A stretch of 23,070 nt of DNA from a virus. The position numbers and the translations under genes were made by a program. Location of the stretch: positions 1-23,070 of IMG/VR virus record IMGVR_UViG_3300043427_003626, one strand, 5' to 3'. Below the pieces are notes generated by a model, which saw only the letters and a program-made list of their open reading frames with translations, ran no database searches and was not told the DNA's origin. Each line of letters begins with the position of its first letter. Within the stretch, counting starts at the first letter, position 1. Positions 3,050 to 12,802 of this stretch are shown piece after piece.

Positions 3050-5293
3050 ATGGCTGTTACCGATAAGCTGAAGCGTTGGGGAGATCGCAACAAGAGCTTC
3101 CTGGTTGGCCCGGTAACCCTGGTAGGGCCGATTACGGATGCGCGCAGGAAGGGCTTTGCAAGCGCGACCAGGATTGACGGAGCTGTTGACGTCTACGAGA
3201 TTACCGACGGCATTGGCGCGACAGAGGGTGCGTACACGATCACGATCCGGCCATATAGCGAGAGGGGCTTAACAGCAAAGCATCGCGCTGTAGGCAGGGT
3301 TGCCTTGGTGCGGCAGGTGAACGGAGTCGGAAATCCAGGTGCGCCTTCGACGGTGGTCGGAATCCGGTCACCGCGCGACTCGAGGTCAACGGTGACCCTG
3401 GGCCCGGCTTTCATCCTGAACCAGGACCGTGTGTTCGTGGTTATCGAACGGCAAGATACCTCGACACTCAGATATATCCTTGAGGTGGACAGGATTCCGA
3501 CGCTTTGGGGCCTGGCCGGCAGCAATCCCTCACTCGACCTGCGCTTTGCGGAGAACAAGAGCCTGACCGATGCCGTATCAGGCCAGAACCTGATCAGCTT
3601 CACCCGCCAAACCAGTGGCACCTATGTCGATAGCCAGGGAGTGATTCGCAATGCGGTGACAAATCTGCTGTTGAGGAGTGAGGAGTTTGGGACTACGTGG
3701 AGCGTTTCTGGTAACAACGCTAGTGTTATCGCTAATCAGGACATAGCTCCTAATGGCACTAATACCGCAGGCAAACTGGTAGAAGACACTTCAGCTTCAA
3801 CGTTTCACCGAATCCAACAAAGTGCATCACTCGCTAACGGGCCAGTCTCTTATAGCGTTTACCTGAAAGCTGCAGGTCGCAACTTTGCTATCCTGACTGT
3901 CTTCAACGCAACAGATGGTAGCTATTCCAATGTCAAGTTCAATCTCCAAGCGGGCACGGTAGATACGGTAATTACCGGATCCGGTATTGGTAGTATTACA
4001 TCCGTTGGTAATGGATGGTTCAGGTGCTCTGTCAGAGGTACGACGACAGTTAGTGCGTCAAACATTGCTTACATCTGGACTTCCAATGCTACAGGTGCCG
4101 GTTCAACTCACACCGGAGACGGCACCTCTGGCATCTACATCTGGGGCGCCCAACTAGAGCAATCCAGCACCGTAGGCGAATACATCCCCACCACCAGCAC
4201 GATCAACTCTGCCCCCCGCTTCGACCACAACCCGACCACGGGCGAAAGCCTGGGGTTGCTGGTGGAGGAGCAGAGGACGAATCTGCTGGTGCGGAGTGAG
4301 GAGTTTGATAATGCAAGCTGGGTTAAAACGCTTGCCACAGTTACGTCCGATGCGGGTATAGCGCCGAATGGCTCGACCGTTGCAGACAAGCTGGTTGGGA
4401 ACTCAACTGTTGACGCTCATTATATTCAACAGAACATCGCAGGAGCCACTAGTGGCACTCCTTACACTTCAAGCGTCTACGCCAAGGCGGCAGAGATTTC
4501 TAGAATTGAGATTCTTCACGTCATAGGAGCAACGCTTTACGCCCAGGGGTATGACTTGTCCAACGGAACGCTGATAACCAGGGTGGCCGGAGGCGCAACT
4601 GCCGCAACCGGGGGCTTCATTCAACCTGTTGGAAACGGATGGTATCGCTGTGGAATTACTCAAACATCAGACGGAACGTCGGGCGCCATGCGCGTTACGT
4701 TGCGCAGCGGCAGCACAGTAGGCTTTGACGCCACTTCCCAAGGAGTGCTGCTCTGGGGCGCCCAGCTAGAAGCCGGAGCCTTCCCCACCAGCTACATCCC
4801 CACAACGGGCACAGCGGCCACGCGATCAGCGGACGTGGCCAGCATTAGTGGTAGCAACTTCTCTAGTTGGTATCGGCAGGATGAGGGGACGGTGTTCTTG
4901 TCGGCCAGCGTCCCTCAGCCCTCAAATGGCAATAGGCGAGTTGCTTTTGCAACAGATGGCACATTCAACAACCGAGTTGGGATCCTGTTCAATTCATCAA
5001 ACAACCCGCAATTTTTGCTTTCAGCCGCTGGAGTAACTACTGCAGCAATCTCGTCAAGTCTTACCGCTACTGGATTCGTTCAGTCTGCCGCCGGATATGC
5101 CGTAGACAATTTTGCGTTTGCTGCTGGCGGTGTTCTTGCTGGCACGGATACATCAGGAGCTGTACCGAGCACCGTGGATCAACTAAGTATCGGGTCTTCC
5201 GATGGTGCGGATCGCATTCACGGCCACATCCGACGGATTGCTTTCTGGCCCTCTCGCCTCTCGGATTCCACCCTCCAAGCAATCACTCAGTAA
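3050..5293 (+). CDS. Large fibre/adhesin with two repeated carbohydrate-binding-like modules and a LamG-like end
   Basis: The 747-residue product is built of modules. Residues 1-150 form a domain shared with the gene at 5912 (VLVGP/FLVGP, GAVDVYEITDG, GRVALVRQ, IERQD). Residues about 165-205 are a linker seen in many phage fibre proteins (SFTRQTSGTYVDSQGV). Two copies of a roughly 205-residue beta-sandwich module follow (about 205-400 and 410-595). Each starts with LL(L/V)RSEEF and ends with WGAQLE followed by a short Thr/Pro-rich stretch, resembling CBM-like modules. The last 150 residues resemble a concanavalin A/LamG fold (HGHIRRIAFWPSRLSD). It is probably a host-binding or capsid-surface protein. 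GGAGG lies 11 nt before ATG 3050. Fold assignments are by resemblance. Confidence 0.75.
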   Translation: MAVTDKLKRWGDRNKSFLVGPVTLVGPITDARRKGFASATRIDGAVDVYEITDGIGATEGAYTITIRPYSERGLTAKHRAVGRVALVRQVNGVGNPGAPSTVVGIRSPRDSRSTVTLGPAFILNQDRVFVVIERQDTSTLRYILEVDRIPTLWGLAGSNPSLDLRFAENKSLTDAVSGQNLISFTRQTSGTYVDSQGVIRNAVTNLLLRSEEFGTTWSVSGNNASVIANQDIAPNGTNTAGKLVEDTSASTFHRIQQSASLANGPVSYSVYLKAAGRNFAILTVFNATDGSYSNVKFNLQAGTVDTVITGSGIGSITSVGNGWFRCSVRGTTTVSASNIAYIWTSNATGAGSTHTGDGTSGIYIWGAQLEQSSTVGEYIPTTSTINSAPRFDHNPTTGESLGLLVEEQRTNLLVRSEEFDNASWVKTLATVTSDAGIAPNGSTVADKLVGNSTVDAHYIQQNIAGATSGTPYTSSVYAKAAEISRIEILHVIGATLYAQGYDLSNGTLITRVAGGATAATGGFIQPVGNGWYRCGITQTSDGTSGAMRVTLRSGSTVGFDATSQGVLLWGAQLEAGAFPTSYIPTTGTAATRSADVASISGSNFSSWYRQDEGTVFLSASVPQPSNGNRRVAFATDGTFNNRVGILFNSSNNPQFLLSAAGVTTAAISSSLTATGFVQSAAGYAVDNFAFAAGGVLAGTDTSGAVPSTVDQLSIGSSDGADRIHGHIRRIAFWPSRLSDSTLQAITQ
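3662..4812 (+). repeat. Two tandem modules with near-identical edges in the fibre gene
   Basis: The left edges at 3662 and 4280 share about 28 nt beginning AATCTGCTG with few differences. The right edges at about 4140 and 4753 share CTGGGGCGCCCA and following text. The period is about 615 nt. The interiors are much more diverged, and the first copy is visibly richer in A and T than its surroundings. Confidence 0.75.
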
Positions 5294-5911: not shown

Positions 5912-6667
5912 ATGACTGTCATTGACAGGGTCAATCGCTGGGGCGCCTCGGGGAAAAGAGTGCTAGTTGGCCCCGGAGAGCTCTCGGGCCCCGCTAGTGA
6001 CGCGATCAAGGGACGCTTTGCAAGTATTACGCGGATTACCGGTGCTGTCGACTTTTACGAGATCACCGATGGATCTGGCGCCAATGAAGGCACGTACACG
6101 ATTTCGGTAAAGCCATACACAAAAGACGGCTTCCGCGCCAGTCTTGGAGGTGTGGGCCGAGTAGCGCTCGTTCGTCAAGCGGATGGCGTCAATACCCCTA
6201 CCGCGACCGCGACGCTGTTGAGCCTAAAGCGTCCACGCGACAAGCAGACCGCTGTTACCTTGGGGCCGGCATCCATCGCGACCACCGACCGGCTGTTTCT
6301 GATTATCGAGAGACAGGACGTATCAACCATCAAGTATCAGGTTGAACTCACTCGAGTTCTGGATGCAATCACAATCAGCACGCAGCCATCCGCTAGCAGC
6401 GTGACTGCGCCAGCCTCGGCGAGTTTCACCGTAGGTGCAACGACAAATGACGGCGGCACTCTGTCGTATCAGTGGCAGCTCAGCACCAACGGTGGCACGA
6501 GCTACTCCAACATCACCAATGGTGGTGTCTATAGCGGGGCGACAACCACGACGCTATCGATTTCCGATTCGACCGGACTCAATGGAAATCTTTATCGCGC
6601 CCGCGTGACCAGCACCGGCGGTTCTGTTGCCGTCAATTCCGATGGAGCGCTGCTGACCGTCGGCTGA
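5912..6667 (+). CDS. Virion adhesin with shared N-terminal domain and Ig-like C-terminal domain
   Basis: The 251-residue product has two parts. Residues 1-150 are a clear paralogue of the N-terminus of the gene at 3050 (RWG, LVGP, GAVDFYEITDGSGANEGTYTI, GRVALVRQ, TLGPA, IERQD). Residues about 155-251 form a bacterial Ig-like beta-sandwich (SYQWQLSTNGGTSYSNI, then LYRARVTSTGGSVAVNSDGA) without the disulfide Cys pair. Ig-like domains are common as surface decorations on phage capsids and fibres, binding carbohydrate weakly. The shared domain is probably the virion-anchoring part and the C-termini the exposed part; this is inference. No strong Shine-Dalgarno sequence lies directly before the ATG. 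Confidence 0.75.
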   Translation: MTVIDRVNRWGASGKRVLVGPGELSGPASDAIKGRFASITRITGAVDFYEITDGSGANEGTYTISVKPYTKDGFRASLGGVGRVALVRQADGVNTPTATATLLSLKRPRDKQTAVTLGPASIATTDRLFLIIERQDVSTIKYQVELTRVLDAITISTQPSASSVTAPASASFTVGATTNDGGTLSYQWQLSTNGGTSYSNITNGGVYSGATTTTLSISDSTGLNGNLYRARVTSTGGSVAVNSDGALLTVG

Positions 6668-8262: not shown

Positions 8263-8844
8263 CTAGCGAACTCCACTGCGCAGGCCTCGACGCATCGAGA
8301 CATGAACGTGGGGGTAGACGCGCTTGGCAAAACGTTCGGACTCCTCGGGGCTCAGCTCGATAGCGAAGCCGCCCTTCGTGGTGATCTCTTCCGTAGCCCC
8401 AAAGCCATGACTGTCCAGGAGCAATGCGGCAGACGTGGTCAGCGGCTTTGAGCGGAAATTAGCAAAGGAGATCCGCGTCCCATCCGAACGCCCCCGATCG
8501 CACCAGAGAGTGCGGAGCCCGTGCTCGCCTGCAATGTCCATGGCGATACGGGTGACCTGTTTTTCATCGCGGGGATAAAGCAAGTCGTAAATATGCTGCA
8601 TCTCAGGACAATGCACCAACAAGCGGTGGTCGTCATAAAAGCCGCGTGTGGGGATCGTCAGGATTTCGCTCTCCAGCTGACCCGGGTATGACGCACGCAG
8701 TTGCCGCTGGATATGGCGCAAGTAGGTTAACTCGAGCTCAGAGCGCTGCAGCATCATCCAGGGGCGTCGCTTCCTGCCCAGGTGCTGAATCCTGCCGCTC
8801 CACATACAGTAGCTGAGTGCGGTGGCCACGAATTGAACTGACAT
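8263..8844 (-). CDS. Second domain of a LAGLIDADG-type homing endonuclease, separated by a frame change
   Basis: This frame encodes the second half of a two-domain homing endonuclease. A degenerate LAGLIDADG helix appears at ALSYCMWSGRIQHLG, then basic WMMLQRSELE. Later, IYDLLYPRDEKQVTRIAMDI matches IYNLLYPRGERRITSTVIDM in the first domain, showing the internal duplication. It overlaps the first-domain frame by 107 nt and is offset by one base. Frame B is open upstream to about 8890, so a one-base difference in 8845-8890 could join them. Either the gene is broken by mutation, needs a programmed shift or reinitiation at ATG 8844, or the sequence has an error. The acidic residue expected in the second motif is absent (WSG instead of ADG), which may affect cleavage. 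Confidence 0.6.
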   Translation of the reverse strand: MSVQFVATALSYCMWSGRIQHLGRKRRPWMMLQRSELELTYLRHIQRQLRASYPGQLESEILTIPTRGFYDDHRLLVHCPEMQHIYDLLYPRDEKQVTRIAMDIAGEHGLRTLWCDRGRSDGTRISFANFRSKPLTTSAALLLDSHGFGATEEITTKGGFAIELSPEESERFAKRVYPHVHVSMRRGLRSGVR

Positions 8845-9445
8845 CCCACTGGTTGCTGTTGAACAGGTGTTGGCGACTTCTCGGTGCGTAAGAGCTCAGG
8901 GCATCCTTGAGCTTGCGAGATTGCTCGGCGTCAAACCACAGCCGGGGCCTGACGCGCTCAAGATCGACCTGGGAAACGGCCCCCGTGAGCATCTCCAGCC
9001 ACTGCTGCACCAGGAGCGCTTCCTGCGTGCTGAGCCCAACGCGCGCCAGTTCGGTCGTGCCGCCGGCTTGCGGCCGAGCGCCTTCTGCCCAGAGCCACGC
9101 GGCTGCTTGCGCCCCGAGCATGTCGATCACCGTGCTGGTGATCCGGCGCTCGCCGCGAGGGTACAGCAAGTTGTAGATCGGGAACAGCTTGCTGGTGGAG
9201 ACGCGAAATCGCAGGACGGGAGTGGTCTTGCCATTCGAGCGCGGCGTCGTGTTGTAGGGAACAATCTGGGCCTTGGTGGGCAGAAAATGGCGGAAGTCGG
9301 CGACCTTATCCTCCAGGAATGCGGACTCCGACGGACCAGCGGTCAGGGTCAACTGCACATAACCCCCGCCAGGAGCGCGATATGGGGCAAGGCTGCCGTC
9401 CGCCAGCAGCAAACCCAGCAGGCCCCGGACGTCAGCAGCGTCCAA
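8738..9445 (-). CDS. First domain of a LAGLIDADG homing endonuclease beside the capsid gene
   Basis: The 235-residue frame opens with a LAGLIDADG motif at residues 8-19 (GLLGLLLADGSL), with likely metal-binding Asp16. DNA-binding beta strands follow, then the conserved block SKLFPIYNLLYPRGERRIT. LAGLIDADG enzymes cut long specific sites to spread their own gene. Start: TTG at 9445 with GGGAGA about 7 nt upstream on the minus strand. The last roughly 40 residues (after about NSNQWD) probably do not belong, because the second domain continues in the other frame. The gene is divergent from the capsid gene, whose start is 90 bp away. It is not inside a recognisable intron, so it behaves as a free-standing homing gene. 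Confidence 0.75.
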   Translation of the reverse strand: MDAADVRGLLGLLLADGSLAPYRAPGGGYVQLTLTAGPSESAFLEDKVADFRHFLPTKAQIVPYNTTPRSNGKTTPVLRFRVSTSKLFPIYNLLYPRGERRITSTVIDMLGAQAAAWLWAEGARPQAGGTTELARVGLSTQEALLVQQWLEMLTGAVSQVDLERVRPRLWFDAEQSRKLKDALSSYAPRSRQHLFNSNQWDVSSIRGHRTQLLYVERQDSAPGQEATPLDDAAAL

Positions 9446-9535
9446 AGTTTCTCCCTATAAAACACTACTATAGTAAGAGACAGGAGGCGCTTAGCGCGCT
9501 TTCTCGTACCTTGACAATTTGGAGCGTTTCATCCC
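9446..9535. promoter_or_regulatory. Divergent control region between endonuclease and capsid genes
   Basis: This 90-bp gap is AT-rich at its left side and contains TATAAA (9456-9461) and a perfect 10-bp palindrome, TACTATAGTA (9466-9475), either of which could serve as a -10 element. An AGGAGG at 9482-9487 has no start codon at a suitable distance. GGAG at 9521-9524 lies 11 nt before the capsid ATG at 9536 and is the likely ribosome site. The promoter assignment is inference. Confidence 0.4.
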
Positions 9536-10162
9536 ATGTGGATTGATAACGATTTTCCGAAGCTGCTTGGTGCTGAGCTTTATCGGCCACATCCTTCTTA
9601 CATCGTTGAGATGGCTGTGGAGCCGGTTGTTGTGCATGATTTTGCTAAGCAACCGGGACAGACTGTGCAACTTGATCGATACCGCTTCTGGGGTGCTCCT
9701 GGCACCAAAGATAGCCGTGAACGCACAGCTGATCAAACGCTCGGTACCGCATCTTCGCGTAGCATCGTGAAGGATAAGGTTCTGGTTTCTCTCAAAGAAT
9801 ATACCGGACCCGCAGATCCTACCGATGTTTCTGCACCTTCTACGTTCAAGATCGCAAGGGAGACCTTGCTTACCGCCCAGCGCATGTTGCTGGATACTGG
9901 TAATCTGAATGTCTTCCATCAATCGATCGGAAGCCTTACGCTTTTGGACGATTATCGCCGCTGGCGCGATCGCGTCTTCTGCGATGAATTGTTCAAAGCT
10001 GAAGGCAATGGAGCTGCAGATAGCACCAAAGGTGGCTACTACTATCCGCTGAAGAAAGCAAAGGCGTCTTCTGCGCCTTTCCTGACCTACGCGGCTGGTG
10101 AGTCGGCCAAATTCGATGTCAAGACCGACCTCCTCGAGGTGGTCAAAGACATGCGCAAGCGT
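9536..10162 (+). CDS. Major capsid protein, exon 1
   Basis: Exon 1 encodes the first 209 residues of a 380-residue major capsid protein. It begins MWIDNDFPKLLGAELYRPHP and includes VVVHDFAKQPGQTVQLDRYR, a strand pattern usual for HK97-fold capsid N-terminal arms and E-loops. The exon ends at CGT (10160-10162) on a codon boundary. The exon end AGCGU can pair with intron GCGCU (10172-10176), leaving a U-G wobble at the splice point, as required for group I splicing. Without splicing, translation would add six residues and stop at 10183, losing 45% of the protein. The family call rests on overall resemblance, three-exon continuity and location. Confidence 0.85.
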
Positions 10163-10514
10163 AAAGTAGTTGCGCTCGCCTAGGGCAATCTAGGCGCAAA
10201 CATCCGGTGAATTGCTGGAACCCCTTCTTCGCGTTCATCTCCCTACAACGTGGCCGGCGACGGCGAGCGTGAATGGTTGAAAAGAGGTGAATAGGGCGAT
10301 CAGCAGCCAAGCTGGTCAGGAATGACTAGAAGGTTCAACGACTAGGCCGTACCCTCCAGGCCGGAGGATGAGGGCCAATAGCGCCGGAGAGCTAACACCA
10401 ATGCTCTACGAAGATGGATTGGGTCAATAGAGGCCGCGGGACGCCCCATGCATTGGTGCTCTAGCTCAAGATATAGTCTACGCCCTGGGGATGAGAAACC
10501 CAGGGAGCTACGTG
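10163..10514 (+). ncRNA. Group I intron 1 in the capsid gene (352 nt, no ORF)
   Basis: The sequence shows a complete set of group I core words: P1 (exon AGCGU with GCGCU and a U-G at the junction), GGTGAATTGCTGGAA (10206-10220), GCAGCCAAGC (10303-10312), AAGGTTCAACGACTAGG (10330-10346) and AAGATATAGTC (10467-10477). GACTA and TAGTC pair to form P7. A 7-bp P9 hairpin (CCCTGGG 10483-10489, CCCAGGG 10499-10505) precedes the final G10514. GUU just before the guide can pair with exon-2 AAC as a short P10. The intron is a small ribozyme without an endonuclease gene. The splice sites rest on pairing and frame, so they could be off by a few bases. Confidence 0.88.
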
Positions 10515-10736
10515 AACGTCCCCACCTTCGCTGATGGGTACTACCGCTGCATTGCGGATCCCACCGCAATGATGCACCTGCGTCAGAACGACTCCTTCCG
10601 GGAGATCGCTCGTTACGCAGGTAATGGGATGGTCAACCCCATGCAACCGGAACTGGCCCCCAATGCCAGCTTCTTCCGTGGCATGGGCCCTGCTTACGGT
10701 CAGGCCGGCTTTGTTGCTGGTCAGCCCGTGATGCCT
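10515..10736 (+). CDS. Major capsid protein, exon 2
   Basis: Exon 2 supplies residues 210-283 (74 codons), from AAC at 10515 to CCT at 10736. It encodes NVPTFADGYYRCIADPTAMM, followed by a helix (HLRQNDSFREIARY) and ending in AGFVAGQPVMP. The YYRCIADP segment matches the central strand/helix motif of several phage capsid families. Joined to exon 1 it reads MRKR-NVPTFADG without a frame break. The exon ends in U, as group I splicing needs, and GCCU can pair with intron GGGC (10746-10749), giving U-G at the junction. Confidence 0.85.
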
Positions 10737-11842
10737 GAAACCATCGGGCCTGCATGATGCGAGTCATGCAGCAAACGGGGTGAATTGCGGGAATGCCTCC
10801 CTACTACGGCAAATCCGCAGCCAAGCCAGGCCACAACCTGGAAGGTTCAACGACTAGGTCCCGAGAGGAAACTCGGTAATGGACCCACGAGTGCCCCGCT
10901 ACTTAACCATTTCAATCCAAGTATCTGCTTCCAGCTTCTTCCGCGTGATGCATGGGGCCCCAGCTCCGTAGGTCCACTGCAGGATCTTGCGAGGCTTGCC
11001 GCCAAAGGTCATCGTGAAGAAGGTTTTGCCAGACGGCAAAACGCGACTGTGTATAACTGGCTCGACGGAAAAGCCTTCCGCCACCCAGCTCGACACAGTA
11101 AAGATAATCGCTTGAGAACAACTGCAGAGGTATAAAGACTTCTTTTTGGCGCTAATATGGCCATCGCCGTCAAGAAGACCTCTTAAGCAATGCCCCCGCA
11201 GTTCACGAGGAATCGTCGACGGCAGAAAATGCTGTTCAGTGTTCAAGGTGATCCCTTGGGACACGAGTGACTCAGTTAGCAAGCGACTATGAATCAGGAG
11301 GCGCCCCGATGGGCGTTTACCTTTTCTCGTCACCCTCTCGCAGGATCCCCTGTAATTAAGCAGTTTTGCCAATCCATTCAGGACATCGGCATCGGGAAAC
11401 TGCAGCTCAATTGAAGTAAACTTCGCATTGGGCTTCAAGGATGTGTGACCATCGGCAGCAAGCAGGCCCAGGTAATAGGCCTTGTCCGGGCTGTCGATGT
11501 TCTGGAAGCAGTCAACCCTTAGATCTCTGTGCCAGGGATGAGCTGTGCCCTGTCCTGGGTGGAGCAACTGGCCGCCCTGCAACGAGCGCCTACAACCGGT
11601 GCTCTTCGTGAATGACTGGATTCCGTGGCGTTTACGAAGCACAAAGAAACTAGACGTGGCAATACCAAGCAGCTTGGCTGCCTGGGTATCCGACCATTCG
11701 GATGCCAGTTTTCTGACGGTTTCTTCTGAGATCTCGAGTTTAACTCCCTGCATAGCAACGGTTAAGTAGATGAGATAGTCTGACCTCACGGGATGGCAAA
11801 CCGCGAGAACTGGGGGATAAACAACCCCAGGATAACATAGTG
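10737..11842 (+). ncRNA. Group I intron 2 in the capsid gene (1106 nt) carrying an antisense endonuclease gene
   Basis: The core words match those of intron 1: GGTGAATTGCGGGAA (10779-10793), GCAGCCAAGC (10817-10826), AAGGTTCAACGACTAGG (10842-10858), and GAGATAGTC (11772-11780), whose TAGTC pairs with GACTA for P7. A P9-type hairpin (CTGGGG/CCCCAG) lies just before the 3' end. The homing endonuclease gene occupies the space between P7 strands, in the P8/loop position, on the minus strand. The intron end is placed at G11842 because only AGC at 11843 keeps frame and follows a G. P10 is weak or absent, so the 3' splice site is less certain than in intron 1. Confidence 0.85.
10899..11753 (-). CDS. 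LAGLIDADG homing endonuclease in intron 2, antisense to the capsid gene
   Basis: The 284-residue product has an N-terminal helix-turn-helix-like segment (about 10-45: SEETVRKLASEWSDTQAAKL). Two LAGLIDADG helices follow, YYLGLLAADGHTS at about 93-105 and CLRGLLDGDGHIS at about 189-201, with Asp101 and Asp195/197 as likely metal ligands. Two motifs in one chain mean it acts as a monomer. The family spreads introns by cutting intronless alleles, so the expected target is the exon 2-exon 3 junction. ATG 11753 is preferred; GTG 11789 would extend coding into the P7 strand of the ribozyme. It is read from the strand opposite the host gene, so it needs its own promoter. Both motifs look intact. Confidence 0.88.
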   Translation of the reverse strand: MQGVKLEISEETVRKLASEWSDTQAAKLLGIATSSFFVLRKRHGIQSFTKSTGCRRSLQGGQLLHPGQGTAHPWHRDLRVDCFQNIDSPDKAYYLGLLAADGHTSLKPNAKFTSIELQFPDADVLNGLAKLLNYRGSCERVTRKGKRPSGRLLIHSRLLTESLVSQGITLNTEQHFLPSTIPRELRGHCLRGLLDGDGHISAKKKSLYLCSCSQAIIFTVSSWVAEGFSVEPVIHSRVLPSGKTFFTMTFGGKPRKILQWTYGAGAPCITRKKLEADTWIEMVK

Positions 11843-12136
11843 AGCGGCTTTCTCTTCGAAGGCGTGCGCTGGTTCGAAAGCACCAACATGCCCGAGAAGA
11901 GCCTGCAGGTGACCATCACCGATGCGTCGATCACCAGTGCGGTGACGGTTGCATCCCCGATGCTGTTCTTCGGCCCTCAGGCCGTGGGCGTGGGCATCGG
12001 CGGCAACAATGCGCAGATCCTGCTGAACAATAACGACGATTTCAGTCGTTTCATCATCATGATCTGGTCGCTCTTCGCAGGTTTCGAAATCCTGAACAAG
12101 GACTTCGTCACCGTGGCTTACTCCTTCGTCTACTGA
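11843..12136 (+). CDS. Major capsid protein, exon 3
   Basis: Exon 3 gives the last 97 residues, beginning SGFLFEGVRWFESTNMPEKS and ending NKDFVTVAYSFVY before TGA. It contains a long beta/hydrophobic stretch (VASPMLFFGPQAVGVGIGGN) and an amphipathic segment (FSRFIIMIWSLFAGFEILNK), consistent with the A-domain and C-terminal strand of an HK97-type capsid protein. There is no start codon with a ribosome site at the beginning of this frame, which supports its being an exon rather than a separate gene. The total spliced length of 380 codons is normal for a major capsid protein. It is followed 15 nt later by the next gene. Confidence 0.83.
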   Translation, partial: SGFLFEGVRWFESTNMPEKSLQVTITDASITSAVTVASPMLFFGPQAVGVGIGGNNAQILLNNNDDFSRFIIMIWSLFAGFEILNKDFVTVAYSFVY

Positions 12137-12151
12137 TAGGAGGTAAAACCC

Positions 12152-12802
12152 ATGGCGAAGAAAATCTATCCCGGTAACTACGTCAACCGCCTGAGCTCCT
12201 ATCAGGGCCAGCCGGTGGTTGCAGTCCCGGGTCGCGTTTACTACCACGTCACCGGTTACGCGCTGGTGCCCGACGACAATGTCGGTGCGACTTCGTTCGA
12301 CGTGATCATCCCGTCCCCCGATCGCCGGGCGGACGACAAGCCCCGGGCCAGTATCACTGGTCTGGTGGTCCCCGCTGGTGCCAGCATTTACCACCTCGGC
12401 CTGCGTGTGCCCGACATGCGCAAGGACCGTGGCGTCGGTACCGCGTTCTCGGGTCTCGTCGGCACCGATACCAACCGGCTCAAGCTGGCTGACGCCATCG
12501 GTAACGACGACACCATCACGACCTCGGCCGCTTCGACGACCTCGAGCGAGTTGGCGGTGGCCAGTACGACCGTAGCCCCGAAAGCCACTGTCAAGAGCCT
12601 GGTCACGCCTGCCATCCTGGCTGGAAACGAGACCCTCAAGGTCTACGTGACCAATAGCTCTGGCACTTCGGCTGGCTCGGCCATTTACTCCACCCAGAAA
12701 GGCGGCACGCCGCTGATCGTTGAGGTGGCGTATTTCCTGTCCGACGCCGTGGCTGACCTCGGTGACGTGACGATTCCGTTCATCACCGAAACGAGCGGCT
12801 GA
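12152..12802 (+). CDS. Capsid decoration-like or minor head protein
   Basis: The 216-residue product is beta-rich (PVVAVPGRVYYHVTGYALVP, ASITGLVVPAGASIYHLGLR). Its middle segment is Ser/Thr/Ala-rich (TTSAASTTSSELAVASTT), and it ends PLIVEVAYFLSDAVADLGD. It lies directly after the capsid gene with a very strong Shine-Dalgarno sequence, AGGAGGTAAAA, 5 nt before ATG. This implies high expression and fits an abundant capsid-associated protein. No family signature is recognised, so decoration protein is an inference from position, expression signal and fold pattern. A terminator follows. Confidence 0.7.
   Translation: MAKKIYPGNYVNRLSSYQGQPVVAVPGRVYYHVTGYALVPDDNVGATSFDVIIPSPDRRADDKPRASITGLVVPAGASIYHLGLRVPDMRKDRGVGTAFSGLVGTDTNRLKLADAIGNDDTITTSAASTTSSELAVASTTVAPKATVKSLVTPAILAGNETLKVYVTNSSGTSAGSAIYSTQKGGTPLIVEVAYFLSDAVADLGDVTIPFITETSG

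Follow-up and report, generated by a model that had tools for sequence, protein, structure and literature searches.

The window, a virus record of 23,070 bases analysed at its full length, carries a major capsid gene in three exons separated by two group I introns, the second of which contains a LAGLIDADG endonuclease gene in antisense orientation (Table 1). Read directly from the sequence, the three exons join in frame to give 380 residues and a stop codon.

Table 1. Features of the split capsid gene, in window positions
Feature	Positions	Strand	Basis
Exon 1 of the major capsid gene, residues 1–209	9536–10162	+	continuous with exon 2 in intron-free relatives; pN/pS 0.057 vs L002
Group I intron 1, 352 nt, no endonuclease gene, site 209/210, phase 0	10163–10514	+	RF00028, 70 bits; unique U/G junction
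Intron 1 P1: exon AGCGU 10158–10162 / guide GCGCU 10172–10176	10158–10176	+	read from sequence
Intron 1 P7: GACTA 10340–10344 / TAGTC 10474–10478	10340–10478	+	conserved core in Rfam alignment
Intron 1 P9-type hairpin: CCCTGGG 10483–10489 / CCCAGGG 10499–10505	10483–10505	+	Rfam alignment; fold
Exon 2, residues 210–283	10515–10736	+	intron-free relatives; pN/pS 0.022 vs L002
Group I intron 2, 1106 nt, site 283/284, phase 0	10737–11842	+	RF00028, 50.7 bits; same-site introns in other contigs; covariation
Intron 2 P7: GACTA 10852–10856 / TAGTC 11776–11780	10852–11780	+	five pairs kept in seven introns
Intron 2 P8: CTACTTAACC 10899–10908 / GGTTAAGTAG 11760–11769; loop holds the antisense gene	10899–11769	+	
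LAGLIDADG homing-endonuclease gene, 284 aa, antisense to capsid	10899–11753	-	PF14528, phrog_4645; pN/pS 0.23 vs L084; fold matches
Exon 3, residues 284–380 and stop	11843–12136	+	intron-free relatives; pN/pS 0.144 vs L002

Comparison with intron-free relatives defines the joins. A search with exon 1 listed 80 IMG/VR viral contigs, and in 79 of these 80 both intron sites are unbroken as far as the contigs reach; the single exception, L080, has introns elsewhere in the capsid gene. The best intron-free relatives encode capsid proteins 95–96% identical to the joined product and run straight through both joins, and the capsid gene of Synechococcus phage S-EIV1 (KJ410740) is likewise continuous across them. 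A sequence-only reading of this DNA had assembled the same 380-residue protein from three separate frames; its exon coordinates prove exact, and the intact relatives that it named as a possible source of contradiction agree with its joins. When each junction is slid by up to 6 nt, the same protein is obtained at offsets −1 to +2 for intron 1 and −1 to 0 for intron 2, and only offset 0 combines an exon-final T with an intron-final G, in both introns. By sequence criteria, no junctions other than those proposed agree with the relatives and also obey the group I rule.

The intron-free relative L002 matches the phrog_1357 major head protein in a profile search (E 2.6e-20, residues 34–377), and the S-EIV1 capsid protein matches the same family. 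S-EIV1 is also the only phage record recovered by exon 1, with 75% identity over that exon. On these matches, the joined protein is assigned as a PHROG 1357 major head protein of the S-EIV1 lineage. An AF2 model of the capsid protein, built with 25 close relatives as input, is poor (pLDDT 43), so the identification rests on the PHROG match; no solved structure related to the capsid by sequence was matched. In the S-EIV1 record (L081 8001–9152, corresponding to KJ410740.1 60859–62010), the annotation places a minus-strand CDS across the first half of the gene, and the capsid CDS covers the second half only; the full frame begins with GTG.

Both inserts have the architecture of group I introns. 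In particular, cmscan with Rfam places RF00028 at 10151–10505 (70 bits, E 3.7e-16) and at 10727–11807 (50.7 bits, E 2.3e-10), each match exceeding the gathering score of 50, with no other Rfam match in the window. The sequence-only reading had called two group I introns in the capsid gene and had suggested a covariance-model search as a check, which supports the call for both inserts. The P3–P9 core, including the P7 guanosine-binding helix, is present in both introns, as judged by the Rfam alignment, the P7 coordinates, and the covariation at site 283, and the P7 words reported earlier are found in each. Of the P9 hairpins that had been reported in both introns, a P9-type hairpin is located in intron 1 (Table 1). 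Intron 1 has the textbook P1 described before, with U10162 paired to G10172 at the splice junction, and a short P10 of 3 bp formed by GUU (10169–10171) and AAC (10515–10517), all read from the sequence. In intron 2, P1 is GCCU/GGGC. The exon-final U paired to G in P1 and the intron-final G occur in this gene and are kept in relatives. In both introns, approximately 30 nt with a hairpin follow the 5′ strand of P7 and precede the 3′ strand of P3, in the place of the IA elements P7.1/P7.2, and by this architecture both are putatively IA-like.

Site-283 introns recur in independent contigs. An alignment of seven such introns, three of which had the endonuclease region excised at approximate P8 points, contains 72 consensus pairs, 40 of them with compensatory changes, and only 14 of 504 cells are unpaired; all five P7 pairs are invariant. 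The site-209 intron occurs in the window only, among the 181 loci of a spliced alignment described below, and so recurrence supports intron 2 and not intron 1 directly. A search for further site-209 introns by junction pattern matched 13 contigs, none with this capsid gene.

These data bear on the alternative of a broken capsid gene or a chimeric contig, whose pieces would survive as relics that are not spliced. Such a reading could point to the single metagenomic contig and to the confinement of the site-209 intron to it; it is contradicted by the complete group I cores and exact joins of both introns, by the recurrence of site-283 introns, and by exon pN/pS values of 0.02–0.14. Strong purifying selection on the exons argues that the gene is not broken, and we regard a broken gene or chimera as extremely improbable. 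Since unspliced exon 1 reads into a stop codon at 10181–10183 and the exons are under purifying selection, removal of both introns from the RNA is very probable.

The antisense gene within intron 2, on which the sequence-only reading was silent, matches PF14528 LAGLIDADG_3 and the phrog_4645 endonuclease in profile searches. The protein has two LAGLIDADG motifs, GLLAADGH and GLLDGDGH, with D101, D195, and D197 invariant, and its AF2 model (pLDDT 89) matches PI-SceI, I-Tsp061I, and I-DmoI in the PDB. Its closest relative, in L084, is 73% identical, starts at an ATG equivalent to 11753, and also lies antisense within a site-283 intron of a capsid gene. The pN/pS against this relative is 0.23, with synonymous sites saturated, which indicates selection on the minus-strand frame at the protein level. 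The endonuclease probably cuts intron-free capsid genes at 283/284. The nearest cultured relatives by tblastn are the phrog_4645-like endonucleases of recombinase introns in Staphylococcus Twort-like phages, at approximately 26–31% identity; PALS_1 differs in that its endonuclease gene lies in the sense direction, between recombinase parts. A search for sigma-70-like promoters found none for the antisense gene and none on either strand of window 9300–12200. The same interval contains seven terminator-like hairpins, compared with 2.7 expected.

Two more distant loci have a similar arrangement. L288 (2587–4784, minus strand) encodes a capsid relative of approximately 39% identity with an antisense endonuclease between exon parts at site 283. 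L302 (1474–4017, minus strand) has a capsid gene of the same PHROG with two group I intron matches, one of which spans an antisense phrog_4645 endonuclease; tblastn with the window capsid missed this gene.

To survey the capsid gene across relatives, split genes were found by a scan for the group I core motif and a scan for the gene downstream of the capsid, and introns were called with a purpose-written spliced protein-to-DNA alignment that gives a small bonus to T/G junctions. Introns are present in 61 of 181 loci, some of which belong to the same contig, giving 88 distinct introns. Insertion sites number 28 by codon and phase; because the neighbours 35.2, 36.0, and 36.1 may be alignment variants, we state the count as approximately 25. 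Rfam backs the introns in many split loci, and introns with long endonuclease genes often fall below its threshold. Introns after codon 4 were missed by the spliced alignment alone, since they leave too little upstream exon; lowering the penalty and using Rfam hits brought them back. L135 (an implausible split at residues 1–2) and L119 and L217 (uncertain introns) were left out of the counts. The joined capsid frame of L141 retains one internal stop, which may reflect sequencing error, a wrong join, or decay.

Many of these genes are split repeatedly: L109 has six introns; L247 and L136 have five each, the latter including its codon-4 intron; and L084, L095, and L241 have four each. The sample defined by the neighbouring gene comprises the best 80 of 92 contigs and therefore describes phages closely related to the window. 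Of its 54 distinct complete genes, 28 are split by one or more introns (one intron in 11 genes, two in eight, three in five, four in three, and five in one). Across all distinct complete genes, a biased mixture, the fraction is 38 of 120. On this sequence survey, the S-EIV1-like capsid gene appears as an unusual hotspot for mobile introns. A preference for specially conserved DNA is weakly supported, with a mean conservation of 0.79 at insertion sites vs 0.76 (random draws give p 0.018 and circular shifts p 0.066), and we do not adopt it.

The introns might instead be kept for regulation, for example to delay capsid synthesis or to produce a second capsid form by skipping of exon 2. Both flanking introns are in phase 0 and exon 2 is 222 nt long, so skipping would preserve the frame; Twort orf142 and the SIOphi polymerase gene provide known cases of exon skipping (PMC11878797). 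However, approximately half of the near relatives are intron-free and the sequence of exon 2 is highly conserved; we consider a regulatory role very unlikely.

The relationships among the introns point to movement between phages. In a tree built from 54 introns that lack endonuclease genes, to which window intron 2 contributed with its gene cut out, site labels change 27 times, close to the minimum of 24 and below shuffled labels (mean 42, lowest shuffle 38), whereas genome labels are at chance (46 vs 46.4). Accordingly, introns are related by descent to same-site introns of other phages and seldom to those that occupy different sites in their own genome; this grouping by site and not by genome is as would be expected of site-specific homing. 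The two window introns were also considered as copies of each other and this was rejected: intron 2 clusters with site-283 introns, and intron 1 is nearest to site-30 introns.

Clustering by site could also arise by descent, if the introns still splice but are ancient and immobile and have been inherited vertically. Some sites do track the capsid tree (site 232, with five genes and one change), and intron 1 has no endonuclease gene. Against this, occupancy on the capsid tree is patchy at site 283 (ten genes, eight changes), site 48 (eleven genes, seven changes), site 35 (seven genes, six changes), and site 139 (six genes, five changes), and the intron 2 endonuclease is under purifying selection. 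Purely vertical inheritance is, in our judgement, unlikely.

The best explanation, which we hold with high confidence, is that an S-EIV1-like capsid gene has been split by two independently acquired group I introns that are spliced out, that intron 2 is mobile, and that the capsid gene of this lineage is a hotspot for such introns. In the mechanism that we infer, the introns at codon boundaries 209/210 and 283/284 would leave the pre-mRNA, most likely by self-splicing, to yield the 380-residue capsid protein; the LAGLIDADG endonuclease would cut an empty 283/284 site, and repair would then copy intron 2 into it. Intron 1, which has no endonuclease gene, probably spreads through recombination or is assisted in trans.

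Endonuclease frames in the capsid introns fall into two families. Long antisense frames occur at sites 30, 139, 144, 283, and 290, and those tested match LAGLIDADG_3; long sense frames occur at sites 36, 48, 87, 88, and 107 and match LAGLIDADG_2. The site-290 intron of L186 contains an extra sense frame, shorter than the antisense gene that it overlaps, for which no relatives were found among these endonuclease frames. Upstream of the capsid gene and divergent from it, the window also contains two overlapping free-standing LAGLIDADG-type frames (8263–9445, minus strand). Homologues of this pair, at approximately 54–68% identity, are found at the corresponding position in many relatives, whether these have introns or not; S-EIV1 gave no match.

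The pair at 8263–9445 could mobilise introns that lack an ORF, such as intron 1, in trans, as in collaborative homing. It belongs to LAGLIDADG_2, the family of the sense intron endonucleases, and adjoins the capsid gene in most relatives, but it is also present in many intron-free phages, and we rate this role as conceivable and rather doubtful. Somewhat less doubtful, and still speculative, is a view of the capsid gene as an arena of phage–phage conflict, in which a separate intron line belongs to each of the approximately 25 sites and a separate endonuclease to several of them. An intron would then protect its carrier from the matching nuclease and arm it against co-infecting relatives that lack the intron, and the antisense placement of one family might decouple its expression from heavy late transcription of the capsid gene.

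Introns in capsid genes have precedents. Mycobacteriophage LittleE resembles the window in that its major capsid gene contains a probable group I intron whose bottom strand has a LAGLIDADG-like frame, and splicing of the LittleE capsid was demonstrated by RT-PCR and N-terminal sequencing; it differs in having one intron at one site, and a multi-site hotspot was not reported (PMC3706429). A passage of the same paper cites Tuc2009 as another phage capsid intron (PMC3706429). In Faustovirus E12 and Mimivirus the major capsid gene is also split several times, with some homing endonucleases and, in Faustovirus, five group I introns; however, these are giant viruses that infect amoebae, their capsid is unrelated, the nucleases are of the GIY-YIG type, and there is an admixture of spliceosome-like introns (PMC6247863, PMC2688009). 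Twort orf142 (tail tube), with three introns, is a multi-intron structural phage gene like that of the window, and Bastillevirinae have multi-intron polymerase and terminase genes; these involve other genes and mostly HNH nucleases, and capsid introns are absent from that survey (PMC11878797). S-EIV1 itself has the same capsid family and no introns. Nuclear rDNA provides further known cases of antisense endonuclease genes within group I introns (PMC9548176).

The sequence-only reading held that most phage introns sit in replication or nucleotide genes, in agreement with the nucleotide and DNA metabolism genes of the literature (PMC11878797), and that capsid introns are unusual. The latter is borne out in that most phage introns lie elsewhere, and needs qualifying in view of LittleE and Tuc2009 and of the frequency of introns in this capsid family. 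In the open-licence literature we found no report of S-EIV1-like capsid introns, or of a phage capsid gene with this many sites. Single capsid introns are already known, and any novelty would lie in the density of the hotspot, approximately 25 sites in one phage capsid gene; because the search covered open-licence papers only, the absence of an earlier report is weak evidence.

A 2025 survey asks why genes of nucleotide and DNA metabolism alone are colonised (PMC11878797); here the target is a structural gene, with approximately 25 sites and with introns in approximately half of the sampled near relatives. Occupied and empty sites provide a natural comparison that allows regulation to be tested against selfish homing, and the hotspot lets intron-based competition be tested, as shown for the PhiPA3 intron endonuclease (PMC11620839). 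For annotation, the consequence is that automatic pipelines will split or miss the capsid genes of S-EIV1-like phages. Elsewhere in the window, 3050–5293 and 5912–6667 share a similar N-terminal part (RWG...VGP...) and probably represent a duplicated tail or fibre gene.
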